Below, in pieces: positions 49,047 through 63,609 of a stretch of DNA of 64,000 nucleotides. Positions within the stretch are counted from its first letter, which is position 1. Each line of letters opens with the position of its first letter. Source of the DNA: Acidisarcina polymorpha (lineage in GTDB: Bacteria; Acidobacteriota; Terriglobia; Terriglobales; Acidobacteriaceae); the NCBI RefSeq assembly GCF_003330725.1, contig NZ_CP030840.1:2480001-2544000 (forward strand), given 5' to 3'. Under the pieces are notes generated by a model, which made no database searches, was not told where the DNA came from, and saw only the letters and a program-made list of their open reading frames with translations. The position numbers and the translations under genes were made by a program.

Positions 49047-52000
49047 CTAGAAATTAAATTTTGCCGCAAGTTGCATGAGGCGAGGCGCGGCGGCATTGAC
49101 GATGTGGCCGAAGTTGGGATCTTGGACTTGCGCATCCACAGCTGTTGGACCGTAGAACTGCGCATGGTTGAAGACGTTGAATGCTTCCGCACGAAATTCG
49201 AGATATTTGGATTCGGTCAGGTGCACACTTTTTTTGAGCGCCATGTCGTAGTTGTCGATGCCGGGTCCGTGGAAGACGCGGCGTCTGGCATTGCCGAGCT
49301 GACCGAGGTTTTCAACCGGAAACAATGCGACGTTGAAAGCGGACCTGCCATTGCGGCCGTTGGTGTTGATTCGAAGCGGTCCTGGTAACTGCTGCGGGGT
49401 GTCGAGCAGGTAGTTGTTGACTCCGTTGCCAAGGGTGCCGAGGAGAGAGTTATCGGAGTTGTCGGTTAACGTGACCGGAAAGCCGGTTGCGAAACGGGTA
49501 GTTCCGGAGAGGCTCCACTCGGAGGTCAGGCGGTTCGAGCTGCGAAAGATGCTTTCAATAGGAAGGGCAAGGGTATAGCTGCCGACGAAGGTGTGCCGTT
49601 GGTCCCACGCGGAGATCGCCCGGCTTTGGCGCGGATCGATTGGATTCAGCTGCTCGCCGATGTTGGAGCCTTGATCGATCGACTTGGCGAAGGTGTAACT
49701 GAGTAGCAATTGCGAGCCGCCGCGGCGATAGCGCAAGGTGGATTCGAGGGCATTGAAGTTCGAGTTGGCGATCGAGCTGTCCGAGGTATTTTCGCCATAG
49801 TTTTCGCCATCGCCGACGCGTGCTCCATTGTTTTGGCCGGAGCGGGTGCCGTAGACGGGCTGGCCGGTTGCGCCGGTATAAGTGGTGTCTTCGCCAAAGG
49901 GGCCGCAGCCTGGAAGGCTGAGACATAAGGATGGATTGCCGAGGTTGACGGAAGAGACAGCGAGGATGTGGTGCCCCTGATTACCGACATAGCTCACTGT
50001 CAACACCGTCGTTGGAGTGATTTGCCGCTGCACTGACAACATGTAGTTGTTGATGTAAGGCGCCCGATTCCGGTAGTAGAAAAATGGGTCCGCCGACAAC
50101 GGGGCGAAGTTGGCCCAGTCGATGGAGGTGTCCGGACGGGACCTCGACACGCTATGCGGAGGAAAGGGAAATGGGAATCGCTGCCCATTATTGACGCCGC
50201 TGGCAGCGGTAATGAAGGGTGTGGCCAGCAGCGGAGGCCCGGGACTGAGGTAGTTATATCCAAAGGGCGGCACGGCGTACATGATGCCGGCAAGCAGCCC
50301 AGGAAACTGGGTATAAAACTTGCCATAACTTGCGCGAATGCTGCTCTTGCCCTGGCCGCCAAAGATCCTGCTCCATAGCCCCTGGTCGAAGCGGGGCGAG
50401 TAGGCAAAGCCAACTCTGGGGGCAAAGTTTTTATAACTTGCGGGCGCGAGGGTTTTCGGGATTCCAGGATCACCGGCGACCAACAGTCCGGGAAGCGCTC
50501 CAGGATAAAGTGTGGATTGCGCCCCGGGAATCCAGGTCTGCAGCTGGTTGTACTTCTCCGAGAAGGGAATGATCAGGTCCCAGCGGATGCCGGCATTGAT
50601 GGTGAGGTCACTTCGAGGGCGCCAACTGTCTTGCGCATAGGCGCCCAGGTAATGGTTGCGCAGGTAGAAGGGCTGACCAGATGACTGGGTGTAGTTGCTA
50701 GGAACACCTATAAGCAGATCGGCGTAGGGATTTCCGGTTTCGGTCCCGTTGATATTGAAAGTACCGTTGAAGGTGGCATTCGGATGCTCATTTATCTGAT
50801 CAAGGTGGAACTGCATGCCGGTTTTCAACGTGTGCGCGCCGATGACTCGGGATAGTCCATCGCTTAAATAGAAGGTATTGTTCACCTGGGTTTCATTGGT
50901 GATCGGAACGCCCATGACGAAGGCCGGAAAGGTAATGTTTTCGATGCCCTCGAACTGCGGCGCCTGCACGTAGATGCCAGGGGTGCCCGCGCCGGTGGTA
51001 AATCCCTGCGACGCGAGACTGACGCCGACACCTCCTTTCGGTTGGCCGATGATATTGGCATTGCGGAGATAGCCAAGGTGAAACTCGTTGACGGTGTTTG
51101 ATCCGATGACCTTGGTGTCGCCGAGCGAGAGCAATTGTGCGCGTCCGATGAACAGCGCGTCGAATCCCGGGATGCTGGCCCCGGCGACGGAGCCTGGATA
51201 GGGATTATCGAGGTTGTAGTCGTCGATGAAGTAATAGGCGGAGATTTCACCCAGCCTGCTGCTCTTGTCGAGGCGAACCGAACCCTTGTCGTCACGAACC
51301 GTTTGCGCAAAAGCAGAACTCGAATACTGGCTGGCGCTGGTGTTGGGAGAAGGAATGTATTGCAACAGATTCTGTCCGGGCGCCGACCAGGCTGACTTGG
51401 GAACCACTCCGTTGGGAAAAACATTGGAGTACGGTTCTCCCGAGGTGACGGCGTAACCTAACTTCTGGGTGAGGATGGAGGCGAGATAGGGGCCGCTGAC
51501 TGATCCGGTGAGGTTGTCGAATACCCCGGTGCGTTCGGCGACGGTGGGTACGGAGATGTTTCCGGTAGAAACGCCCTGGCTGGTGCGAGTGCCCTGATAG
51601 TCGCCGAAGAAGAAAAAGCCGTTGCCGCTTAATTGACTGCTGACGGGTCCGCCCAGGGTGCCACCGAACTGATTCTGCTTAAACGCCGACCGAGTTGGGT
51701 CAAAGTATCCGCGGGCGTCGAGGTTCGTATTGCGAAGGAACTCGAAGGCGTTCCCATGAAATGCGTTCGAACCCTGGCGGCTGACGACGGTGACCATGCC
51801 GCCGTTGTAGTTCCCGTATTCGGGATCGAAGTTGTTAGTGAGAACGCGGAACTCCTCGATCGAATCGAGGTTCGGGATGATTGAGGCGCCGCCATTCATG
51901 TGTTCCTGAACATCGATGCCGTTCACGATGAATCCGTTAGAGGATTCGCGCTGGCCGTTGATGGAGAGGTTGCCGGGATTCAGATCGCCTGACGGATCGA

Positions 52001-52571
52001 GGGCACCAGTGACACCGGCCATGATGACAGAGTTCGGCAATAAGGTGGAGATTGGCGAGACTCCGGGCTGAATCGCGAGCAGATCGGTATAACTTCTCCC
52101 ATTGAGCGGGAGCGAGGTCAATTGCGCGCTGGAGACGACCTCGCCGAGATGGGTGGCGATGGTTTCGACGGCGACACTCGAGGCGCCGGTCACGACGACA
52201 TCGTCCGATCGCTCGCCGAGCGTAAGCGATGCGTCTATGCGAAGAGCGGAGTCGGTGTCGACCGCCAGATCCATCCTCTGCTGGATGGTGAATCCTTTCG
52301 CGGAAATGGCGAGATCGTAGTGCCCAACCGGAAGGTTTGGGAAGGCAAAAGTCCCCTGACGATCGGTGACTGCATGATGGGTTGTCCGTTGAGCGTTGTT
52401 GACGAGGGTGAGGGCGGCACCTGGAATGACTGCGCCGCTGGGATCGGTGACGGTGCCGGAGATGCTGCCACCGGTCGCTGCCTGCAACTGCAGGGTCATG
52501 AGAAGAATGAAAACGAGGATTGTCGGAGTCAGGTAGGTCGTACGTAGGCAATGCGACTTCGAGGCGGACAT
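49047..52571 (-). CDS. Oar-like TonB-dependent outer-membrane receptor with carboxypeptidase-regulatory domain
   Basis: 1174 residues and intact. A signal peptide (LVFILLMTLQLQA) leads into the regulatory beta-sandwich (GSISGTVTDPSGAVIPGAAL). The plug follows (LTSLPLNGRSYTDLLAIQPG, then NGIDVQEHMNGG and VVSRQGSNAFHGNAF), and then the beta-barrel, ending in an aromatic phenylalanine (QLAAKFNF). It is about as long as the other two receptors, but the plug and barrel segments differ, so it is not a recent copy. It probably takes up a large nutrient with the help of TonB. No SusD-like or hydrolase gene is directly next to it on the same strand. Confidence 0.92.
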   Translation of the reverse strand: MSASKSHCLRTTYLTPTILVFILLMTLQLQAATGGSISGTVTDPSGAVIPGAALTLVNNAQRTTHHAVTDRQGTFAFPNLPVGHYDLAISAKGFTIQQRMDLAVDTDSALRIDASLTLGERSDDVVVTGASSVAVETIATHLGEVVSSAQLTSLPLNGRSYTDLLAIQPGVSPISTLLPNSVIMAGVTGALDPSGDLNPGNLSINGQRESSNGFIVNGIDVQEHMNGGASIIPNLDSIEEFRVLTNNFDPEYGNYNGGMVTVVSRQGSNAFHGNAFEFLRNTNLDARGYFDPTRSAFKQNQFGGTLGGPVSSQLSGNGFFFFGDYQGTRTSQGVSTGNISVPTVAERTGVFDNLTGSVSGPYLASILTQKLGYAVTSGEPYSNVFPNGVVPKSAWSAPGQNLLQYIPSPNTSASQYSSSAFAQTVRDDKGSVRLDKSSRLGEISAYYFIDDYNLDNPYPGSVAGASIPGFDALFIGRAQLLSLGDTKVIGSNTVNEFHLGYLRNANIIGQPKGGVGVSLASQGFTTGAGTPGIYVQAPQFEGIENITFPAFVMGVPITNETQVNNTFYLSDGLSRVIGAHTLKTGMQFHLDQINEHPNATFNGTFNINGTETGNPYADLLIGVPSNYTQSSGQPFYLRNHYLGAYAQDSWRPRSDLTINAGIRWDLIIPFSEKYNQLQTWIPGAQSTLYPGALPGLLVAGDPGIPKTLAPASYKNFAPRVGFAYSPRFDQGLWSRIFGGQGKSSIRASYGKFYTQFPGLLAGIMYAVPPFGYNYLSPGPPLLATPFITAASGVNNGQRFPFPFPPHSVSRSRPDTSIDWANFAPLSADPFFYYRNRAPYINNYMLSVQRQITPTTVLTVSYVGNQGHHILAVSSVNLGNPSLCLSLPGCGPFGEDTTYTGATGQPVYGTRSGQNNGARVGDGENYGENTSDSSIANSNFNALESTLRYRRGGSQLLLSYTFAKSIDQGSNIGEQLNPIDPRQSRAISAWDQRHTFVGSYTLALPIESIFRSSNRLTSEWSLSGTTRFATGFPVTLTDNSDNSLLGTLGNGVNNYLLDTPQQLPGPLRINTNGRNGRSAFNVALFPVENLGQLGNARRRVFHGPGIDNYDMALKKSVHLTESKYLEFRAEAFNVFNHAQFYGPTAVDAQVQDPNFGHIVNAAAPRLMQLAAKFNF

Positions 52572-52991
52572 CGTTTTTCTCAGACCGAATAAAGCCGTTG
52601 GTCCGCGCGAAGGCTGTTATTGCACAGACTCTTTAACAAGCCAGCCTTTTAGAGCGAGGGTGACGGCGTTTATGAATATCGTGTGACGGCGGGTCGAGAA
52701 CTTCTTCTCTAATTCAGACGCCAGGCAAGGAGAATTTTGCCTCGCCATCCATATGCTACTCCATCCATTCCCAACCTATGCTCCGAGTACGCGGTAGCTT
52801 GCTCGAGCAGATTGCGCCGGACGGGAAAAGTTAAATGTTATTTCTTGCTTCCAAGGCAATCCGAAGGATAAGGTACTCCGTACTCAGGGAAACGAACGGT
52901 AAGCTCCTGAACCCCAAGACAATTCATTCATTCACATCCTGTGCAGGCTCTTCCCGTTCCCGAACGCACGATGAAGTTATGGGAGAGTCGT
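52572..52991. other. 420-bp divergent regulatory region
   Basis: The region lies between the third receptor (minus) and the DUF4331 gene (plus). A small hairpin, AGGCAA (52723-52728)/TTGCCT (52737-52742), is the only clear structure. No convincing promoter hexamers were found. Confidence 0.5.
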
Positions 52992-54617
52992 ATGTCGAAA
53001 GTAAGATCCTTCGCCGGACTCGCTTTGAGTCTGCTTATCGCTGTGCCGCCCGGAGCCTTGGCATCAAGCCATCGGGAAGCACCTATTACTGCACTGGACC
53101 ACGCCGCTGACATTACCGATTTTTATGCCTTTGTCAGCTACGATCATCCGGACCGCGTCACCTTCGTCCTGAATGTGGATCCGTTTCTGCAGCCGAGCAA
53201 TGGACCCAACTACTTCCCCTTCGACCCCTCGATCGTTTACCAGATCAAAATCGACAACAATCATGACGCCGTGCCGGACGTCACTTTTCAGTTCCGGTTC
53301 CAGACCACGATCCGTGATCCTCAGCTCTTTACCGGCTTTGCCGGTGCGGGAGCCGGCATCGATGCGCCCGCAAATTCGCCTGCGCCGGTCCCGCCGGGTA
53401 CTCCGATTATTCCTCCTGCGATCACTTCGCTCACGGGGCCGGGATCTGCCGGCTTGAGTCTGGAACAGACATTCGCCGTCAACATGCTTAAGGGCGATCA
53501 CAACATTGCGTTGAAGAACAAGACGGGCAGTCCGCTGATCGCGGTCCCCAGCAACGTAGGCCCGCGCACCATGCCGGACTATGACGCCCTGGCGGCACAG
53601 GGGATTTATAACCTCCAAGGGACGGATGCTTCCGATATCAAGGTCTTCGCGGGCACCGTGGCCGATCCGTTCTTTATCGACCTGGGCGCGGCCTTTGACA
53701 GCTTCAACTTCCGCGCGGCTGCGGGCGGGGGTGTTCTTACCAAGTTGCAGGATGCCAACGACCAACTCAACACCGCCCCTAATTCGGTCGCTGGCTTCAA
53801 CGTCAACACCATCGTCATCGAGGTGCCCATTTGCCTGCTGACGAGCGATGGAGCCCAACATAAGTCCACGGATCCGAAGGCGGTCATCGGGGCATGGGCA
53901 ACCACCTCCAGGTCAGAGATGACGATTCGACCGCCCCACACACCGGCCGAAAATTCAGGCCGCCTTGCCCAGGTTCAGCGCCTTGGTAATCCACTGATCA
54001 ACGAATTGATTATCGGAACTGGCAGCAAGGATTACTGGAGCATGTCGCACCCGCTGGACGATAGTCAATTCGCGGCCTTCGACCTCGATCCGCTGCTTGC
54101 CAGGGTCTTCAATGCGGTGTTTGGCATCAATATACCGGCTCCCCCCAGAACCGATCTTCTCCCGCTGGTCACTTACGCGGCCCCGATAGCTCCCCCGGAC
54201 ACTCCCGCCGGGCCGATCGCCGACCTGTTGCGGCTCAACACTGGTGTGGCACCGACGCCCTTGGTAAGTCGCAGGCGCCTGGGTCTGCTCGACGGGGATG
54301 CTGCCGGATTCCCGAATGGGCGGCGGCTCACCGATGATGTCGTCGACATTGCCGCGAGAGTGGTCGCGGGCGGCGTGCTGAGCCCGGGATTCAATGTCGC
54401 GCCGAACAACCTGCTCGGCGATGGCGTGAACGCGCCAGACGTCCCGCCACAGGAGACGTTTCCCTATGTGCACTATGCGTATAGCGGACGCGACAGCCGT
54501 CACATCAGTCCGGGCGATCCTACTGGCTGCGGCGATCAGCCGCCGTCGTCCAGCTCGCAGAACTCGGATGCTCCGCCTGCCAACCAGGGCGGTCCCGCGC
54601 CCTGCCCTGTGAACTAG
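52992..54617 (+). CDS. DUF4331 secreted protein
   Basis: 541 residues from ATG 52992, with GGGAGAG five bases upstream; other in-frame ATGs at 52941 and 52971 come before that site. A signal peptide (GLALSLLIAVPPGALA) is followed by the DUF4331 hallmark ASSHREAPITALDHAADITD and FYAF, then a long beta-rich domain (SYDHPDRVTFVLNVDPF and more). The family is widespread in Proteobacteria and Acidobacteria, secreted, and uncharacterised. It begins a group of three genes on this strand with the TPR protein and the nickel permease. A 10-bp-stem hairpin separates it from the next gene. Confidence 0.9.
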   Translation: MSKVRSFAGLALSLLIAVPPGALASSHREAPITALDHAADITDFYAFVSYDHPDRVTFVLNVDPFLQPSNGPNYFPFDPSIVYQIKIDNNHDAVPDVTFQFRFQTTIRDPQLFTGFAGAGAGIDAPANSPAPVPPGTPIIPPAITSLTGPGSAGLSLEQTFAVNMLKGDHNIALKNKTGSPLIAVPSNVGPRTMPDYDALAAQGIYNLQGTDASDIKVFAGTVADPFFIDLGAAFDSFNFRAAAGGGVLTKLQDANDQLNTAPNSVAGFNVNTIVIEVPICLLTSDGAQHKSTDPKAVIGAWATTSRSEMTIRPPHTPAENSGRLAQVQRLGNPLINELIIGTGSKDYWSMSHPLDDSQFAAFDLDPLLARVFNAVFGINIPAPPRTDLLPLVTYAAPIAPPDTPAGPIADLLRLNTGVAPTPLVSRRRLGLLDGDAAGFPNGRRLTDDVVDIAARVVAGGVLSPGFNVAPNNLLGDGVNAPDVPPQETFPYVHYAYSGRDSRHISPGDPTGCGDQPPSSSSQNSDAPPANQGGPAPCPVN

Positions 54618-54642
54618 AACAAGGTTGTCGCGATGGACTGCT

Positions 54643-54677
54643 GACCTCTGCGTGGAGTGTCTCTCTGCGCAGAGGTC
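54643..54677. terminator. Stem-loop after the DUF4331 gene
   Basis: GACCTCTGCG (54643-54652) pairs perfectly with CGCAGAGGTC (54668-54677) around a 15-base loop. With no U-tract, it may be a partial terminator or a stabiliser between the two cotranscribed genes. Confidence 0.45.
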
Positions 54678-54700
54678 GAAATCTCACACGGCGGTACAGC

Positions 54701-54740
54701 GGTTTCTTAGTACAAGGGTTTCTTAGTACAAGGGTTTCTT
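54701..54740 (+). repeat. 16-bp tandem repeat ending at the start codon
   Basis: GGTTTCTTAGTACAAG occurs at 54701-54716 and 54717-54732, then the first half (GGTTTCTT) at 54733-54740 runs into the ATG at 54741. The unit junction makes AAGGG, so each copy carries a ribosome-binding-site-like word; the one at 54730-54734 is six bases from the ATG. Confidence 0.9.
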
Positions 54741-57440
54741 ATGAGATTGCGATATACATCGCTTCTGATTGGTGTTGCCCTCGCATGCGCGTCAGGATTC
54801 GCCGAGCAAAAGGAAGGCACTCCGGCGCAGCAGAGCATTGCGGCGGCGCAGCAGCAGATCAAGCTCGATCCGAAGAAGGTGCAGGCTTTCAACGAACTGG
54901 CGCTGGGGCTGCTGCGAAGAAGTCGCGAGACTGCGGATGCCAAGTATCTAAAGGATGCCGAAGCCGCTCTCGCCCAAGGTTTGCAACTGGCGCCCGGGGA
55001 CTTCCAGATGCAGCGGACGGAGGTGGCGCTGATGCTGGGGCGTCATGATTTTGCTCAGGCGAAGGAACGCGCACTCATTCTTCACCACCGCACGCCGGAC
55101 GATGTAGCCACCTATGGAGATATCGCTGAAGCGGACATAGCGCTAGGCAACTATCCGGATGCGGAGACGAATGCGCAGTGGATGATGAATCTGCGGCCCA
55201 ACAATATTCCGGCGCTGATTGCTGGAGCGGAACTGCGGGTGCTGTATGGAGATCCTGCAGGCGCCATCGATTTCCTGAACCGGGCATCGTCGGAGACCTC
55301 GCCGGCCGAGGTCGAGGAGCTCGCTTGGATTGCGAACCGCGTTGCGTCGATCCAGGTCGAATCAGGACAAGTCGACGCGGCCGAGCAGACGCTCGAACAG
55401 GCGGAGCGGATCTTTCCCGGATATGTCTCCACAATGGAGAACCTGGCTGCGGTTCGGATGGCGCAGAATCGCGCTAACGATGCGGTTGAACTCTTGACGA
55501 AGGCCGCCGAGGTCGATAGCGATCCGCACGTGATTTATCGATTGGCGGTGGCGGAGCAGAAGGCGGGGCTGTCTGATGAAGCCCAGGCAAAAGAAGCGCA
55601 GGCGAGCTTTGTGGAATTCGAGAAGATGACGAGCGAGCCGGGAAAAGCGACGCATGAGGCGAGGCTTGATCTTGTTCTGATGGAAGCGGGATTGCCGGCG
55701 AAGGCTCCGGATGCATTGAAGCTCGCGCAGGCGGAGATGGCGGAGCGCCAGGACGTGTGGACGCTCGATGCCTATGCGTGGGCGCTGTTTGCCAACGCGC
55801 AATATCAGGCAGCGGAGGCTGCAGAGCAGAAGGCAATGGCCATTGGAATTCGAAGCGCACAGATCTTCGATCATGCCGGCCATATCGCGCAGAGGCTGAA
55901 CCACAGCGAGGATGCTGCCAGGTACTTCAAACTTTCAATACAATCCAATCCCATGTCGGATTATGCTTCCGATGCTCTTAAGTCAGCAGGAACGACGGTG
56001 CTGGCTTATGCCCCGGAGCAAAGATCGGTTCAGACTGCAAGTGGTTCGCCGTTAGAGCCGGAATCACCCGATGTCTTGCCGCGTCCGACGATTGCTTCGA
56101 AGGAACAGGCTGCGCGGCCGGGCGAAGTGGCAACGGTGGCCGCATCTCTGGTGTTTGCTCCAGTTCCGGAGGCGCTGCTTACACCACACCCTACCGGCAC
56201 CGACCGGCTCATCCAGAGCGCTCAAGCTACTGCGCTGCGGAATCCCAATGACGCCAAGGCGTACTCGGGACTGGGAGCTGCGTACTTTCAGCGTGCCCGT
56301 GAGACTGGCGACGTCAACGATTATCAGCTGGCCGAACAAGCGCTTACCAAATCGCTCGACCTGGTTTCAGCTGACTTTTCGGCAGATGCCGCGCTGGGCA
56401 CGATGGCCTCGGTATGCATGGGAGAGCATCGCTTCAATGATGCACTTAGCTATGCGCAGCGAGGACTGTCGCTGGGAACGGGTGACGTCTCCTCGTTCGC
56501 CATTGTAGGGGACGCTTATGCGGACATGGGCGAGTACGACAAGGCCGCGCTTGCCTATAGTCGACTGACGCCGCGCGACATGACTCTGGAGCCGCGCGCC
56601 GCCTATGCGCGGGACAGCCGGCTCGCCTATTTGAAGCTCATTGCGGGTGACACGCCGGGAGCCATTCTGTTGATGAAAACCGCGGTCGCGGAGGGAGTAG
56701 AGGCCCAGCTTCCGAGTGAGAATCTTGCCTGGTTGTATTACGAACTGGGAGAGTTTTCTACGCTGAGCGGCGACACCGCCTCCGCGAATAGCGCCTACAT
56801 GGCCGCGATCACGATTCATCCCGGAGATTATCGCGCGCTGGCGGGTTTAGCAAAGCTCAGAGCGAACCACGGCCGATCCGCCGAAGCGATTGGGCTTTAT
56901 CAGAGAGCGATCGCCGTCGTCCCGATGCCAATCTTCATTGCCGAACTCGGAGACCTCTACGCACAAACAGGCAATGAGTCCGAAGCCAGAAAGCAGTATG
57001 CACTGGTTGAGTACATCGGGTTGCTTGGGCACATCAATCAAGTGCTCCATAATCGCGACCTCGCGCTTTTCTATGCGGACCACGATGTGAAACTCTCCGA
57101 GGCGCTCGAGCTCGCGCAGAAAGAGCTTGAAGTCCGGCACGACATCTATACCTACGACGCCCTCGCGTGGGCGCTCTGCAAGAACGGCAGGCTGACCGAG
57201 GCTGCGGACGCGAGCGCGAAGGCGTTGCGACTCGGAACCCAGGATCCGCTTCTGCTCTTCCATTCCGGAATGATTGCCGCACGTCTCGGTCAAGTAGAGA
57301 AGGCCCGCGCTGATCTCGAGCAATCGCTGCACATTAATCCCCACTTCGGCCTGATCGATTCGACAGTTGCCCAGCAACAACTCAATAGGCTGGGAATTCA
57401 ATCTGCTTCGAAGGAAGGTTCTGGCCAATATGCTCGCTAA
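54741..57440 (+). CDS. Secreted TPR protein with internal duplication
   Basis: 899 residues. A signal peptide (LLIGVALACASGFA) is followed by TPR helices throughout. The protein is two related halves: LLRRSRETADAKYL and QRARETGDVNDYQ, and RQDVWTLDAYAWALF and RHDIYTYDALAWALC, fall 458-463 residues apart. The half-length unit is therefore about 460 residues, joined by a Pro/Ala-rich linker (about residues 420-485). The ribosome site is supplied by the 16-bp repeat. The nickel permease gene overlaps its 3' end by 11 bp, so the two are translationally linked. It may organise the DUF4331 and permease proteins; its partner is unknown. Confidence 0.87.
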   Translation: MRLRYTSLLIGVALACASGFAEQKEGTPAQQSIAAAQQQIKLDPKKVQAFNELALGLLRRSRETADAKYLKDAEAALAQGLQLAPGDFQMQRTEVALMLGRHDFAQAKERALILHHRTPDDVATYGDIAEADIALGNYPDAETNAQWMMNLRPNNIPALIAGAELRVLYGDPAGAIDFLNRASSETSPAEVEELAWIANRVASIQVESGQVDAAEQTLEQAERIFPGYVSTMENLAAVRMAQNRANDAVELLTKAAEVDSDPHVIYRLAVAEQKAGLSDEAQAKEAQASFVEFEKMTSEPGKATHEARLDLVLMEAGLPAKAPDALKLAQAEMAERQDVWTLDAYAWALFANAQYQAAEAAEQKAMAIGIRSAQIFDHAGHIAQRLNHSEDAARYFKLSIQSNPMSDYASDALKSAGTTVLAYAPEQRSVQTASGSPLEPESPDVLPRPTIASKEQAARPGEVATVAASLVFAPVPEALLTPHPTGTDRLIQSAQATALRNPNDAKAYSGLGAAYFQRARETGDVNDYQLAEQALTKSLDLVSADFSADAALGTMASVCMGEHRFNDALSYAQRGLSLGTGDVSSFAIVGDAYADMGEYDKAALAYSRLTPRDMTLEPRAAYARDSRLAYLKLIAGDTPGAILLMKTAVAEGVEAQLPSENLAWLYYELGEFSTLSGDTASANSAYMAAITIHPGDYRALAGLAKLRANHGRSAEAIGLYQRAIAVVPMPIFIAELGDLYAQTGNESEARKQYALVEYIGLLGHINQVLHNRDLALFYADHDVKLSEALELAQKELEVRHDIYTYDALAWALCKNGRLTEAADASAKALRLGTQDPLLLFHSGMIAARLGQVEKARADLEQSLHINPHFGLIDSTVAQQQLNRLGIQSASKEGSGQYAR

Positions 57441-59910
57441 ACGACTCGATCAGCTCTGGCCGTTGCTGCTGGTGATGGTTCTTGCGCTCCCGGCCTGGGC
57501 CCATCCGATGGGCAACTTCAGCGTGAATCACTATTCGAAGATTGACTTGCAGAGTGACCGAGTGGTGGTGCGATATTTCATCGATCTTGCGGAGATTCCC
57601 ACCTATCAGGAGCTGCAGCAGGGCAATATCGCAACGACTGCGCTCAAGCCGGGCTCCGCGTCAGGCATGAGCTACGTTGCGGCGCGCGGCACTGAGCTGG
57701 GACGGGGTCTGGTTCTCGAGATCGATGGTCAACAAACTTCACTGCGAATGATTTCGAGCGCTGTCATCTTTCCTCCCGGCGCCGGCGGGCTTCCGACCAT
57801 GAAGATGGGTTTCGTTTATGAAGCGGCGATTCCATCGGGCATTGACCGTCAGCGGGTCAACCTGCACTATGCCGATCACAACTATCCGGGACACACGGGA
57901 TGGAAAGAAATCGTGGCGCTTGCTTCGGCTGGTTCTTTGCTTCAAAGTTCGGCTTCGGCTACGGACCGCAGCGGGGAACTGAGCAACTATCCAACGGATC
58001 TGCTGACCAGTCCACCGCAGGATCTGGATGCTTCGGTTGTTGCCGCGCTCCCCATAACAACTGGAACGGTCACCAAGACAGAGGCTCATCGGGCATCTCC
58101 ATTGGCTTTGAAGGATCCTCCAGCGGCTTTGAAGGATTTGCCAACGGTCTTGAAGAACGGGGGCGCAATCGTTGCTCGCCGGGTTCGCCCCGGGAAGATG
58201 GAACAGAGTGCTCCTGCGCTCGCGTCTACCCCAGCTCGACCGATTGGCGCAGCGCAGGGGGCTTTGCAGGCCACGACTCCAGCTTCGGTTCCGGTGCATC
58301 TCGAGGCCAACCGGCAGCAGACTCCGCGCAGCAGATTTACTGAGTTGATCACGGCCCAGCATCTTAGCGCCTGGTTCCTCTTCACGGCGGCATGGATTGC
58401 TGTCGGACTTGGAGGATTACATGCACTTGAGCCCGGCCATGGGAAGACCATTGTGGCTGCCTACCTGGTAGGTTCGAAAGGCACTGCGCGGCATGCCTTC
58501 CTGCTGGGGCTGATCGTGACTGTGTCTCATACTGCCGGTGTTTTTGCGCTGGGAGCGATCACGCTATACGCTTCCCGATACATTCTGCCCGAGCAACTTT
58601 ACCCCTGGCTTGGCGCTTTCTCGGGAATCACGATTATGGGGCTGGGTTGCTACATGCTGCTGCGGCGTTTGAGCGGCGCGGTCACGGAGCACTCTCATGC
58701 CCCGGGCGCGCCCTCAGCCCATTGGACTCTTTGGAGGCCCAGACCGGTGGGGCAAGAGCCTGACGCCACGCCGAGCGCCGGCAACCCTCAGCCGGTGAGC
58801 ATGACTCAACTTTTCACGTTAGGAATTACTGGCGGAGTGATTCCCTGTCCGGCCGCCCTTATTGTGCTGTTGAGCGCAGTTGCGCTGCATCGCGTGGGGT
58901 TGGGTTTCTTCCTGATTGTGGCCTTCAGTCTGGGGTTGGCCGCAGTGCTTATCGGCTTCGGCATGTTGATGGTCTTCGCACGCCGCTTCATGACTCACCT
59001 GCGGATCGACGGGCCGCTCACTCAGCGCTGGCTTCCGGCGGCATCGTCGGGGTTCATTACGATCCTCGGCATCATCCTGACTGTTCAGGCATTTTCGTCG
59101 ATGCACTTGCATCTGCCTATGGTTTCCGGTGCGAGGCTGGGACCGGTGCTGCTGGTCTCCGGGCTGGGCCTGGTCCTAGGAATGCGGCACTCGACCGACG
59201 CTGATCATGTGGTCGCTATTTCAACCATCGTCAGCAAGCAGCGGAGTATTCGCAATGCCGCCTTCATCGGGTCAGTGTGGGGGCTGGGTCACACGCTGAC
59301 GATCTTTGTCGTCGGCTCGCTCATCATTCTCTTCGGTGTCGCGATCCCGCCGAGGTTAGGCTTGTCGATGGAGTTCAGCGTAGCCCTCATGCTGATTCTG
59401 CTGGGCGTTCTCAACCTTACTGGTGTCATGCAAAGGATCACCACTTACTTCACGCCAAGCGGCGCAACCAACTTGAATACAGCCGAGGCTGGGACGACCG
59501 GTCGACAAGAGACGAACGCGGTACGAAGCAATCGGACACGAAGCATCTACGACAGTTCGGTAGGCCGTTTCGGTTGGTATCAGTGCATTCGCCCGTTGGC
59601 GATTGGGTTGGTGCATGGGCTCGCGGGGTCCGCAGCGGTGGCTTTGCTGGTCTTGTCCACGATTCACGACCCGGTTTGGGCGACCGTTTATCTGCTCATC
59701 TTCGGTGCTGGAACCATGATTGGGATGATGTGCATGACGGCCGCAATTGCTTTGCCTCTCGCCTACGCGGGAGATCGATCTGCCATGTTCAGCCGCTATC
59801 TCGGGGTGACCTCCGGCGTGGTCAGCCTTTGCTTCGGATCATTTCTGGCGTATCAACTGGGTTTCCTGGGCGGACTGTTTACCGGTCACCCACAGTGGAC
59901 TCCCCGGTAG
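57430..59910 (+). CDS. Fusion of NicO/RcnA-type and HoxN/NixA-type nickel/cobalt permeases
   Basis: 826 residues from ATG 57430, which overlaps the TPR gene by 11 bp. A signal peptide is followed by a periplasmic beta-rich domain (HPMGNFSVNHYSKIDLQSDR onward, to about 220), a low-complexity linker with three 7-residue repeats, then a NicO/RcnA-type membrane domain. That domain has the histidine motif HALEPGHGK at 331-339 and GGVIPCPAALIVLL. A second membrane domain follows with GMRHSTDADH at 584-593, the signature of the HoxN/HupN/NixA family. Both families carry Ni2+ or Co2+; RcnA-like proteins export and HoxN-like proteins import. One chain with both is unusual. The direction and the metal are not known. 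Confidence 0.85.
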   Translation: MLAKRLDQLWPLLLVMVLALPAWAHPMGNFSVNHYSKIDLQSDRVVVRYFIDLAEIPTYQELQQGNIATTALKPGSASGMSYVAARGTELGRGLVLEIDGQQTSLRMISSAVIFPPGAGGLPTMKMGFVYEAAIPSGIDRQRVNLHYADHNYPGHTGWKEIVALASAGSLLQSSASATDRSGELSNYPTDLLTSPPQDLDASVVAALPITTGTVTKTEAHRASPLALKDPPAALKDLPTVLKNGGAIVARRVRPGKMEQSAPALASTPARPIGAAQGALQATTPASVPVHLEANRQQTPRSRFTELITAQHLSAWFLFTAAWIAVGLGGLHALEPGHGKTIVAAYLVGSKGTARHAFLLGLIVTVSHTAGVFALGAITLYASRYILPEQLYPWLGAFSGITIMGLGCYMLLRRLSGAVTEHSHAPGAPSAHWTLWRPRPVGQEPDATPSAGNPQPVSMTQLFTLGITGGVIPCPAALIVLLSAVALHRVGLGFFLIVAFSLGLAAVLIGFGMLMVFARRFMTHLRIDGPLTQRWLPAASSGFITILGIILTVQAFSSMHLHLPMVSGARLGPVLLVSGLGLVLGMRHSTDADHVVAISTIVSKQRSIRNAAFIGSVWGLGHTLTIFVVGSLIILFGVAIPPRLGLSMEFSVALMLILLGVLNLTGVMQRITTYFTPSGATNLNTAEAGTTGRQETNAVRSNRTRSIYDSSVGRFGWYQCIRPLAIGLVHGLAGSAAVALLVLSTIHDPVWATVYLLIFGAGTMIGMMCMTAAIALPLAYAGDRSAMFSRYLGVTSGVVSLCFGSFLAYQLGFLGGLFTGHPQWTPR
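58099..58161 (+). repeat. Three 21-bp in-frame repeats in the permease linker
   Basis: The units encode PLALKDP, PAALKDL and PTVLKNG back to back. They lie in the linker between the periplasmic domain and the first membrane domain. Confidence 0.75.
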
Positions 59911-59972: not shown

Positions 59973-61028
59973 TCACAGAATCGGAGGGCGTCCGGAGACG
60001 GCGGCTGTGAGCAGCGCGAGACGGATGGCGCCGATGAGCTGGGCGTCGACTCCAAGGACGCTGTGGAGCAGGCGCGGGGGTGTTCGCATATTCAGCGTGG
60101 CAAGGGCTGCCCGGGTGGCGTCAATTAGCGCGGGATGCATGCCGACACTGCCGCCAAGCACAAACAGGGGGCAGTTCAAGACGAGGGCGATGTTATAGAT
60201 TGCCCGCGAGAGCGCGACGGCGGTTTGTTGAAGAAGGGCCTGGGCTGGGGGATCGCCGTCCAATGCGCGGTCAAATATCTGGGTGGCGGTCAGATCGTCG
60301 GCGGGCGCATTTGATTCGGGGCGAAAGTGATTCTGCCATTGGGCGCGGATGCCCTCACCGCCGCTCATGCTTTCGAGCGCTCCGGGCTCGCCACGTTTGG
60401 CGGAAACGTCGGGCACGCCAGAGATGAGCATATAGCCGATCTCGCCGGCAGCCCAGCTAGCTCCCCGAAAGAGCTGCCCATTGAGCATGATGCCGGCGCC
60501 GATTCCGGTACCAATCGCGAGGAAGACGAAATCACCAGCGTCTTTTGCAGCGCCTGCCCAACTCTCGCCAAGCGCTGCGAGATTGACGTCATTATCGACG
60601 ACGGCGGGGATGTCGAAGGCTTCCTCAAGCATTGCGCGGAGGGGAACGTCGCGCCAACCCATGAGATAGGAGGTGGCAATGACAATGCCCGCCTCAACGT
60701 CGGTGATGCCGGGCGCACCGGCGGCAATGGCCCTCAGGCTTTGGTTGGCTGCGGGATGTTGCGCGAGGAGGTGCTCCACGCCCTGCTTGATGAGCTGGAC
60801 CACGACCTCAGCATCGCGGAGACCGGCGGTGGAGCAGGCCCATCGCGCCTCGATGGCGCCATTTCCATCGGCAAGAGCGAGGCGCAGGTTTGTCCCACCA
60901 ATATCGACGCCAACTACGTAGCAGGGATCGTCCGTCGCGACGGAGCCGCGGTGGGTTGTGTCGAGACTGCGGATACGATCATGCGTCATTTGCAGGAGTG
61001 CCTCTTCATTAAAGATTCTTCGCGTCAC
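59973..61028 (-). CDS. ROK-family sugar kinase
   Basis: 351 residues from GTG 61028, with GGAG about six bases upstream. The phosphate-binding motif is VVGVDIGGTNLRLALAD, and the second glycine-rich loop is FLAIGTGIGAGIMLNGQLF. The catalytic aspartate lies in VVDNDVNLAALGE. The family's usual zinc-binding motif (CxCGxxGC) is missing: the equivalent position reads SAKRGEPGALESMSGGEG. Enzymes of this kind phosphorylate glucose, N-acetylglucosamine or similar sugars. It is the last of three genes in a row (isomerase, transporter, kinase), with 19 bp to the MFS gene, so an amino-sugar or hexose substrate is likely. Confidence 0.9.
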   Translation of the reverse strand: MTRRIFNEEALLQMTHDRIRSLDTTHRGSVATDDPCYVVGVDIGGTNLRLALADGNGAIEARWACSTAGLRDAEVVVQLIKQGVEHLLAQHPAANQSLRAIAAGAPGITDVEAGIVIATSYLMGWRDVPLRAMLEEAFDIPAVVDNDVNLAALGESWAGAAKDAGDFVFLAIGTGIGAGIMLNGQLFRGASWAAGEIGYMLISGVPDVSAKRGEPGALESMSGGEGIRAQWQNHFRPESNAPADDLTATQIFDRALDGDPPAQALLQQTAVALSRAIYNIALVLNCPLFVLGGSVGMHPALIDATRAALATLNMRTPPRLLHSVLGVDAQLIGAIRLALLTAAVSGRPPIL

Positions 61029-61047
61029 ATCCGCTCCCCCGACGGGC

Positions 61048-62424
61048 TCAGGACGCGACTGCAGTGGTGGTCGAACTAATGCTTTCCAGGGCGCGTCCCT
61101 TGGTCTCCGGGACGATGAAGCGGACGAACAAGAGAGTGAGGATACAGAAGATGCCGTAGATGATGAACGTAACGGAATTGCCGGCTGCCTTGATGAGCGA
61201 GAGAAAGGTCAAGGAAACCAGGAAATTGGATGCGCCGGAGCCCAGGGTCGCCGCGGCAACGCCGCGACCGCGCAGTTGCAGGGGAAATACCTCGGAGACG
61301 AGGATCCATGCGATGGGTCCCATGCTGAAGGCGAAGCAAGTGATGTAAACCATCAGGCAGACAGTGGCGACGGCGCCGGGCGCTGCCGAGAAGGCCGACG
61401 GATTATGGAAGGAATAGGAGAGCAGGAAGAGGGAAGCGGTCATTCCGCTTACGCCGGCGTAGAGCAGGGGCTTGCGTCCGACTTTATCGACGAGCACCAA
61501 GGCGATGATGGTGGCGAGAACGTTAATAATGGCGACCAGGAGTGTGGCGAAGATTGCATTTTTGTCGGAGGTAATTCCGGCCAGCGAAAATATCTGGGGT
61601 CCATAGTAGATGATTGTGTTGATGCCGGTGACCTGCTGAAGGACGGTGAATCCTACGGCGATCAGGAGCGACCCGCGAACGGCAGGACTCCAGAGGGCGC
61701 TCCAGCGCTTTTCGACTTTGGTGTTGAGGGCGGTGCGGATGTCTTCGACTAACACTTGAGCGCCCGCCTCATCGGTGTAGGAGAGCAGGATGGCTTGTGC
61801 CTCGGTGGCCCGGTTCTGGGAGAAGAGCCAACGCGGGCTCTCGGGTAGAGCAAGAAGGAGGACGACAAACAGCAATGCCGGCACGGCGCCAATGCCGAAC
61901 ATGAGCCTCCAGGCATGATGGGAGGAGAGCAGATAACCGGCGAGGTCGGCGAAGGCGATGCCGAGCGTGAGAGCAAACTGGTAGAGGCCGATGAGGGTGC
62001 CTCGGGACCTGGGTGGCGCCAGTTCGGAGACGTATACGGGAGCGGTCACGGAGGTGAACCCGATGGCCAGGCCTAAGAGGGCGCGAGCACAGATCAGCGT
62101 AGCGGGATTTTGGGACGCGGGAGCGAGCAGGGAGCCGACGAGGAAGATGGCTCCTCCCCAAAGCAGCGTGGAGCGTCTGCCGATGCGATCCGCGATGCTA
62201 CCGCCGACGAGCGCGCCGATCATGGCCCCGACGAGAACGATGCTGACGACCCACTCCTCCATGCGGGTGGAAAGCGAGAAGGTCTCTCGCACGTAGATCA
62301 GCGCGGCCGCGATGATGCCCATGTCGAAGCCGTAGAGGATGCCGCCGAGACCTGCGATCAAGGACACTTTCCAAATGAAGCGGCGATGCCGCGATGTGTG
62401 TGAGATGGTCGCTGTGTCGGTCAT
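61048..62424 (-). CDS. MFS sugar-porter family transporter
   Basis: 458 residues, 12 predicted membrane helices. The sugar-porter signatures are present: GGSIADRIGRRSTLL between helices 2 and 3, PESPRWLF after helix 6, DKVGRKPLL between 8 and 9, and PETKGRALE at the end. The N-terminus GGILYGFDMGIIAAAL is the usual helix 1. It would take up a hexose or related sugar with protons. AGGAG lies nine bases before the ATG at 62424. The gene is 36 bp from the isomerase upstream and 19 bp from the kinase downstream, so the three are one operon. Confidence 0.93.
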   Translation of the reverse strand: MTDTATISHTSRHRRFIWKVSLIAGLGGILYGFDMGIIAAALIYVRETFSLSTRMEEWVVSIVLVGAMIGALVGGSIADRIGRRSTLLWGGAIFLVGSLLAPASQNPATLICARALLGLAIGFTSVTAPVYVSELAPPRSRGTLIGLYQFALTLGIAFADLAGYLLSSHHAWRLMFGIGAVPALLFVVLLLALPESPRWLFSQNRATEAQAILLSYTDEAGAQVLVEDIRTALNTKVEKRWSALWSPAVRGSLLIAVGFTVLQQVTGINTIIYYGPQIFSLAGITSDKNAIFATLLVAIINVLATIIALVLVDKVGRKPLLYAGVSGMTASLFLLSYSFHNPSAFSAAPGAVATVCLMVYITCFAFSMGPIAWILVSEVFPLQLRGRGVAAATLGSGASNFLVSLTFLSLIKAAGNSVTFIIYGIFCILTLLFVRFIVPETKGRALESISSTTTAVAS

Positions 62425-62460
62425 TCCGTGGTGCTCCTTGCGCCCGCTGCCGGAGGTCGT

Positions 62461-63609
62461 TTACTGCTCCATCACACCATATTGAAAGCGGGGCGGGAGA
62501 CGGCATCCATTTCTTTCCACCATGCCAAGGGTGAGTGCCTGCGGCACCAGAAGCGACGTAATGCTTTCCCAGGGTTCGGGCACGGCTTCGATGCGAACCG
62601 GGAACAACTGGCCGGTAGCCTTGCGGTCGTCGTTCGAGACGAGAATTACTTTTCCGCCGCGGCGATTGCACTCTTCGGCGAGCTTGATCCCAAGTTCCGC
62701 GACCCGGCCGATGGCGAAGATAATGGCGACGTGCGACTCATCGACATCGAGGTTGGGACCGTGTTTGAAGCCGGCGCCGGTATGCGCGGCTGCCCGGTGC
62801 CCGGTCATTTCGCGGATACAGAGAGCGCTCATGATCGCGCTGCCGTAGGCGGCGCCGCGGCCGATGATCTCGGTGTTCGCCGCGCCTCGACAGAAGGCTT
62901 CGAGCTCGGCACGCCGGGCGAAGATCGGATCAAGGCTAGCGGCAAAGATGTCTGCTGCGCGATCGGCATCCTGCTGCCAGGGAAGATCGAGGATTTCGGA
63001 GGCGAGAATGATGGCGGCGGCAGCGGCGTTGGTGTAGGTCTTGGTGGCATTGCCATACTCGGGGCCGGCGAGGATCGGCAGTTTATAGCGGGCAAGGTTC
63101 CAGCAGGTACTGACGGGATTGTTGCAGATCAGGCCAATGGCCCGTTCGCCGGCTTTCTCGAAGAGCGCGACCAGTTCGGCGCTTTCGCCGGAGGTGGTAA
63201 GCAGCACGGACAACGCGGAATCGTCCCACACCGAACGCCCGTAGTGCAGCCACTCGCCCGCATCGAGCGAAACCGAGAGTCGATTGTGAGTCTGGAGAAG
63301 GACGGATCCGGAGAAGGACGAACAGAAGGAGGCGCCCATGCCGATGAAGAAGATGGGACCGTCCTTTTTTGCCAGCTCACGGAAGCTCTGGAGTTGCGCG
63401 CGAATGGCGGGATCGCTGCGGTACGCCTGGATGAGGTCGCGCAGACGCCGGGGCTGCTCGCGGCACTCGTATTCGAGTATCTGTATACCATTCGCGGCCA
63501 GGAGCTCTCCGGGGGGTTCGACGCCGTTGATCCACCTGGGCGATTGGCGATGGGCTAGGCTCGCGTGGCCTGGGGATGTGCCAGGGCTTTGCTGATCGAC
63601 TTCCTGCAT
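62461..63609 (-). CDS. SIS-domain aminosugar isomerase/deaminase (GlmS/AgaS-like)
   Basis: 382 residues with two SIS domains. The first shows PIFFIGMGASFCSSFSGSVL and VLLTTSGESAELVAL, the second IIGRGAAYGSAIMSALCIRE and GHRAAAHTGAGFKHGP. The pair resembles the isomerase half of GlmS and the deaminases that convert glucosamine-6-phosphate to fructose-6-phosphate, without the glutaminase domain. With the sugar porter and ROK kinase it makes a short catabolic route: uptake, phosphorylation, deamination or isomerisation. GGA lies six bases before the ATG at 63609. The exact amino sugar is not fixed by sequence. Confidence 0.88.
   Translation of the reverse strand: MQEVDQQSPGTSPGHASLAHRQSPRWINGVEPPGELLAANGIQILEYECREQPRRLRDLIQAYRSDPAIRAQLQSFRELAKKDGPIFFIGMGASFCSSFSGSVLLQTHNRLSVSLDAGEWLHYGRSVWDDSALSVLLTTSGESAELVALFEKAGERAIGLICNNPVSTCWNLARYKLPILAGPEYGNATKTYTNAAAAAIILASEILDLPWQQDADRAADIFAASLDPIFARRAELEAFCRGAANTEIIGRGAAYGSAIMSALCIREMTGHRAAAHTGAGFKHGPNLDVDESHVAIIFAIGRVAELGIKLAEECNRRGGKVILVSNDDRKATGQLFPVRIEAVPEPWESITSLLVPQALTLGMVERNGCRLPPRFQYGVMEQ

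Follow-up and report, generated by a model that had tools for sequence, protein, structure and literature searches.

An apparently undescribed, putative envelope metal system of Acidisarcina polymorpha built from DUF4331, TPR and nickel/cobalt-type permease proteins

Among the closest described counterparts of the system considered here is the anglerase, a metal-binding domain carried by HupE/UreJ-2 permeases and published in 2025 (PMC12537917). In the Ang-1 form (structure 9GCE) a His follows the signal peptide of a periplasmic beta-sandwich, three helices lie between strands 2 and 3, and the domain is tethered to a Ni-type permease; it binds Cu (74 nM) and Ni (220 nM) and has been proposed to feed its permease, the HupE/UreJ-2 proteins being described as nickel importers (PMC12537917). 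The same paper treats DUF4198, a secreted Ni-binding family, and makes no mention of NicO, HoxN or the amino-terminal Cu- and Ni-binding (ATCUN) motif. Here we analyse a locus of Acidisarcina polymorpha in a 64,000-nucleotide stretch of contig NZ_CP030840.1 (positions 2,480,001 to 2,544,000, forward strand; hereafter the window), where three genes encode a DUF4331 protein, a tetratricopeptide repeat (TPR) protein and a double permease with a periplasmic domain of its own, termed His1. An earlier note, made from the window sequence, had proposed that these form an undescribed metal-handling system. On our results this is probably a conserved envelope metal system, so far apparently undescribed, whose form here is derived through two gene fusions.

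The three genes lie in a row on the forward strand, the last two overlapping by 11 bp, just as the earlier note had it. The first (52992-54617; ATG at 52992, with a GGGAGAG ribosome-binding site ahead of it) encodes a secreted DUF4331 protein of 541 aa, with a predicted signal peptide at residues 1-24, that matches Pfam PF14224 at 384.2 bits against a gathering cut-off of 27 (E 1.3e-114), covering positions 1-419 of 421. The second (54741-57440) encodes a probably exported protein of 899 aa, matched by many Pfam TPR models and with an N-terminus that looks signal-like by eye. The third (57430-59910, overlapping the TPR stop region at 57430-57440) encodes the permease, 826 aa in a single open frame that begins with ATG at 57430, with a match to NicO (PF03824).

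This row is a real conserved unit, neither a chance one nor a private one. A protein search of 249 genomes of the order (Terriglobales), followed by reading of the loci, found the fused permease in 14 and its two halves as adjacent separate genes in four (G171, G233, G246 and G078; G handles denote genomes, L handles loci). DUF4331 is present in 51 of the 249 and in several other phyla. Of the 16 genomes whose contigs allow a verdict, 12 have it no farther than ~7 kb from the permease, fused or split: the own genome, G167, G073, G189, G205, G006, G244, G161, G126, G137, G074 and G171. In G013, G233, G246 and G120 the two are unlinked, and G078 and G214 were left out of the count because of contig edges. 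The genes thus stay together in most relatives, mostly in the order DUF4331-TPR-permease, with TPR-permease-DUF4331-TPR in G006 and G205. In the own genome there are three genes for DUF4331 proteins; of the three NicO-family proteins, two are encoded within two genes of a DUF4331, an arrangement expected by chance at ~1e-5 on a simple random-placement estimate. The second of these sets (L030) comprises DUF4331, TPR and a 355-aa NiCoT, so that the association is repeated with a classical transporter. Beside this second set (L030:4059-9593) there are also genes for an alpha/beta hydrolase and a regulator of the AraC type; L095 is arranged alike, and in L098 the hydrolase and AraC genes have no NiCoT between them.

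Beyond the order, the set recurs in five phyla: Acidobacteriota, Dadabacteria, Chloroflexota, Actinomycetota and Pseudomonadota. Loci L102-L137 were collected via the permease, so that the one informative finding there is that of DUF4331, which lies in the flank of 21 of these 36 loci; L138-L157 and L158-L165 were collected via DUF4331, and for these it is the presence of permease and TPR that counts. A Ni-type permease lies within two genes of DUF4331 at 5 of 20 phylum-sample loci (chance expectation ~0.07 of 20) and at 4 of 8 plasmid loci, and a TPR gene is adjacent to DUF4331 at 16 and 6 of these, respectively. Three permease types fill the slot: NicO, NicO+HoxN-like and HupE/UreJ-2. DUF4331, TPR and NicO occur together in Bryobacteraceae (L127), a Chloroflexota bacterium (L121) and Nonomuraea (L137), and NicO and HoxN-like proteins are encoded by separate genes beside DUF4331 and TPR in Candidatus Dadabacteria (L115) and Pyrinomonadaceae (L129). 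Other classes of the phylum carry HupE/UreJ-2 at four DUF4331 loci (L154-L157) and a fused NicO-HoxN chain at one (L149). Among plasmids, a Streptomyces locus (L164) has DUF4331, TPR and a 'nickel transporter', and those of Lichenicola (L165), Comamonadaceae (L159) and Paraburkholderia (L163) have DUF4331, a TPR-like protein and HupE/UreJ; PF13795, the HupE/UreJ-2 family, is matched at L154, L157 and L165.

Both permease halves named in the earlier note are indeed in one chain, with neither stop nor frameshift between them in the window sequence. The NicO half (58327-59109, residues 300-560, ~6 transmembrane (TM) helices) carries HALEPGHGK at residues 331-339 (58420-58446) and has a His-containing loop, EHSHAPGAPSAHW, after its third helix; the HoxN/UreH-like half (59128-59907, residues 567-826, also ~6 TM) carries GMRHSTDADH at residues 584-593 (59179-59208) and gives a weak NicO stretch. 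PF03824 matches the whole permease at 54.8 bits in three stretches (cut-off 27.7; E 1.2e-14). The subfamily names that the note had attached to the halves fared less well: RcnA-like PRK10019/NF007454 scores 105.7 bits against the curated NCBIfam cut-off of 195 and HoxN/HupN/NixA TIGR00802 19.1 bits against 333, so that 'RcnA-type' and 'HoxN/NixA-type' denote resemblances only. With RcnA/NicO the N-terminal half shares the HALEPGHGK-type motif, ~6 TM and the His-containing loop; unlike those proteins it shares its chain with another permease and a sizeable periplasmic domain. The C-half shares with NiCoT (HoxN/NixA) and UreH the H-X4-D-H motif (RHSTDADH; H587, D592 and H593 are invariant in three fused relatives) and a GH motif, and differs from NiCoT in having ~6 TM rather than 8 and no LGxDTATE motif; it may be nearer to UreH. 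The AlphaFold2 (AF2) model, fair at a mean pLDDT of 71.6, shows a beta-sandwich domain followed by ~6 and ~6 membrane helices. Fused relatives are 50-71% identical to the window permease, and its C-half is 55% identical to a standalone transporter of the own genome that follows hypA, hypB, hypC, hypD and hypE (names read from the translations and matched among loci). A general hyp linkage of standalone HoxN-like proteins was considered and dropped, hyp genes being found in the short flanks only in the own genome, G095 and G253.

The fusion itself, which the earlier note had built into its system, is a derived detail and not its essence, because the halves are split genes in four relatives of the order, in Dadabacteria and in Pyrinomonadaceae, and HupE/UreJ-2 permeases take the slot elsewhere; the permease chain joins what are neighbouring genes in those four relatives. 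A second join has produced the TPR protein, which had been read as a duplication. In a tree of TPR sequences the N-terminal halves of the long proteins (here 54741-56027) cluster with TPR genes adjacent to DUF4331, and the C-terminal halves (56028-57440; the boundary is approximate) with TPR genes adjacent to the permease, each with support of 100/100. The halves are thus two old, distinct lineages, which rules out a recent internal duplication. G171 (L076) and Edaphobacter aggregans (L116) have two separate TPR genes between DUF4331 and NicO. A related gene set is also present in Granulicella aggregans. The long chain, being made of a DUF4331-linked and a permease-linked half, ties both sides of the system together.

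The permease's own periplasmic domain was also correctly foreseen, and it is here that the likeness to anglerases lies. His1 (57502-58077, residues 25-216) would begin, after a likely signal cleavage A24|H25 (AxA rule), at the predicted mature N-terminus HPMGNFSVNHY, in which His25, Pro26, Gly28, Asn29, Ser31 and Tyr35 are invariant among 27 aligned permease homologues; HupE/UreJ proteins of the module likewise have a His at the predicted mature N-terminus. In the AF2 model the domain folds as an Ig-like beta-sandwich whose strands 2 and 3 are separated by helices (pLDDT mostly 80-94 over residues 31-180). For the permease model, 9GCE ranks third in Foldseek with probability 1.00 and is the top VIA-align match (Z 9.0, 145 residues aligned, root-mean-square deviation (rmsd) 6.2 Å). 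The window permease thus shares with Ang-1-HupE/UreJ-2 the His expected after the signal peptide, the modelled sandwich with its helices and the tethered Ni-type permease; unlike it, it is NicO plus HoxN/UreH-like with no PF13795 hit, and is accompanied by DUF4331 and TPR.

The DUF4331 protein has a predicted N-terminus of a related kind. Its cleavage context, GALA|SSHREAP (AxA), would leave Ser-Ser-His (S25-S26-H27, 53064-53072) at the start of the mature protein. Of 72 unique secreted DUF4331 sequences, 67 have an AxA-like site precisely two positions ahead of the conserved His, against 0-10 for any other register; the two preceding residues vary (SS, AS, AN, SD, AD) and the His is constant, the variants reading MSHHLDSP not fitting this register. 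X-X-His with a free N-terminal amine is the ATCUN copper/nickel motif, and DUF4331 may use it as such, given the predicted N-terminus. DUF4198 is likewise secreted, with a metal-binding N-terminus and genes near Ni genes and TonB receptors (PMC12537917); it differs in family and in having its His at position 1, that of DUF4331 being at predicted position 3. The DUF4331 AF2 model is poor (mean pLDDT 47.6, with a beta-sandwich core only), its best VIA-align match, 7uwu (Z 7.8), points to no clear family, and a sequence search of solved structures found no convincing relative for DUF4331 or the permease. Acidobacteriaceae DUF4331 proteins have a conserved C-terminal Cys pair (GC...CPV). Those of L115 (4400-6118) and L121 (9720-11453) end in a hydrophobic stretch and basic tail, PEP-CTERM/rhombosortase-like by eye, which suggests that they may be surface-anchored in some lineages. 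In one subgroup a protein of 250-280 aa precedes DUF4331 (L067:12217-12981, L069:11666-12451, L074:5461-6300) and is possibly a further member; the two tested (L069, L074) gave no Pfam match.

The divergent neighbour of DUF4331 in the window (49047-52571, reverse strand; PF25183, E 1.6e-167) is an Oar-type TonB-dependent outer-membrane protein, tentatively an outer-membrane partner. Neighbouring proteins in L102, L114 and L104 share 72-76% identity with it, and in L104 the receptor gene lies 22 bp downstream of the permease. TonB-dependent receptor-like proteins of three recurring types lie no more than 7 kb from DUF4331 in ~20 loci. A rough count gives ~84 large proteins in the own genome with PF13620, a domain carried by such receptors, so that a chance rate of ~5% is expected within two genes; this makes the enrichment suggestive without amounting to proof. 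L082, L083, L085 and L086 have DUF4331 and TPR followed directly by a TonB-dependent receptor, with no permease nearby, the receptors of L083 and L086 being ~74% identical to that of L082.

Taken together, we consider it reasonably probable that the products of these genes form an envelope system, DUF4331 and His1 capturing Ni or Co (Cu being possible) and the double permease moving the metal, probably inward. Secreted DUF4331, with its X-X-His start, would chelate metal in the periplasm or outside; the exported TPR protein would act as a scaffold docking DUF4331 on the permease; His1 would take over the metal in the manner proposed for anglerases and feed it to the two transporter halves, of 6 TM each, in the same chain; and the TonB-dependent receptor found beside DUF4331 in many loci would be the candidate outer-membrane partner. 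Ni/Co is the best guess because all the permease types are from Ni/Co families and one paralogue stands with hyp genes. Import is favoured because of the TonB-receptor neighbours (such receptors are importers), the HupE/UreJ-2 proteins in the same slot and the C-half paralogue that follows hypABCDE. The analysis shows the order of the genes and how far it is conserved, both fusions, the predicted N-termini and the likeness in fold; metal binding, hand-over, the scaffold role, the identity of the metal and the inward direction are all what we infer. The capture idea of the earlier note gains from the anglerase-like His1 domain and the X-X-His terminus of DUF4331, while its metal and direction stay at the level of likelihood just given.

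Several observations weigh against this reading. The fold match to 9GCE has a large rmsd (6.2 Å), and many genomes have DUF4331-TPR but no permease close by (15 of 20 phylum-sample loci). NicO relatives such as RcnA export, and ATCUN sites favour Cu. Ang-1 and Ang-2, too, bind Cu most tightly (PMC12537917). No association was seen with [NiFe]-hydrogenase (PF00374, best E <=1e-35; 7 of 18 permease carriers, 86 of 231 others) or with urease (PF00449, >180 bits; 0 of 18 and 8 of 231), the counts being read by eye from listings; these figures speak against a simple role in supplying Ni enzymes. Neither a Ni/Co nor a cobalamin riboswitch was found at the gathering threshold in the window and the loci of 26 relatives, nor a NikR-type palindrome upstream.

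Some of these points would suit export or detoxification of excess Ni/Co, with an RcnA-like NicO half and with DUF4331 and TPR buffering periplasmic metal: the NicO half best resembles the E. coli efflux family, albeit below the PRK10019 cut-off, the loop EHSHAPGAPSAHW follows its third helix and there is no link to Ni enzymes. We nevertheless hold export to be unlikely, since the TonB-dependent receptors beside DUF4331 point inward, the closest in-genome paralogue of the C-half sits in a hydrogenase-maturation cluster and the HupE/UreJ-2 proteins that take the same place elsewhere are described as nickel importers (PMC12537917). That the substrate is copper, captured as Cu(II) at the X-X-His and His1 sites and delivered to the cell by the permease, is quite unlikely in view of the three permease types, all in families known for Ni/Co, and of the lack of copper genes noted beside the loci. 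The copper preferences mentioned above, those of ATCUN sites and of Ang-1 and Ang-2, speak for it. Very unlikely, in our estimate, is co-location without joint function, with DUF4331-TPR forming a surface system of its own and the permease simply lying nearby in many cases; the 15 of 20 loci that lack a nearby permease and the four unlinked genomes of the order would fit, but DUF4331-linked and permease-linked TPR proteins are joined in one chain, independent loci pair with different permeases and the odds in the own genome alone are ~1e-5.

A near-palindromic element, CCGTTCCCGAACG, which could be an operator or a leader element, lies ~40 bases 5' of the DUF4331 start (window 52940-52992), with similar positions in L102, L063 and, roughly, L081; promoter and terminator consensus scans gave no signal above chance. 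On the other side a reverse-strand row (59973-63609) of a ROK-family sugar kinase, a sugar porter and a SIS-like protein (called by eye) faces the permease and is probably an operon for the use of sugars or amino sugars.

As to novelty, the parts are of known kinds; it is their combination, with the assignment of DUF4331 to it, that appears undescribed, judged on the open-licence literature searched, in which we found no paper naming DUF4331, a family without assigned function. To this extent the earlier note's suggestion of a candidate undescribed system stands. With its conserved neighbourhood and X-X-His terminus the DUF4331 family gains a testable function; the NicO+HoxN and TPR+TPR joins are natural evidence of parts working together; and the anglerase idea, formed on HupE/UreJ-2, would come to cover another class of permease and acquire partner proteins. 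DUF4331 might further be a secreted protein metallophore, binding Ni, Co or Cu at its X-X-His site in the periplasm or outside the cell, which a dedicated TonB receptor and the TPR scaffold would deliver, the His1 domain strip and the permease relieve of its metal by import, a proposal that we regard as tentative and rather doubtful. If true, it would mean a new uptake route over at least five phyla, and a function for a large family without one.

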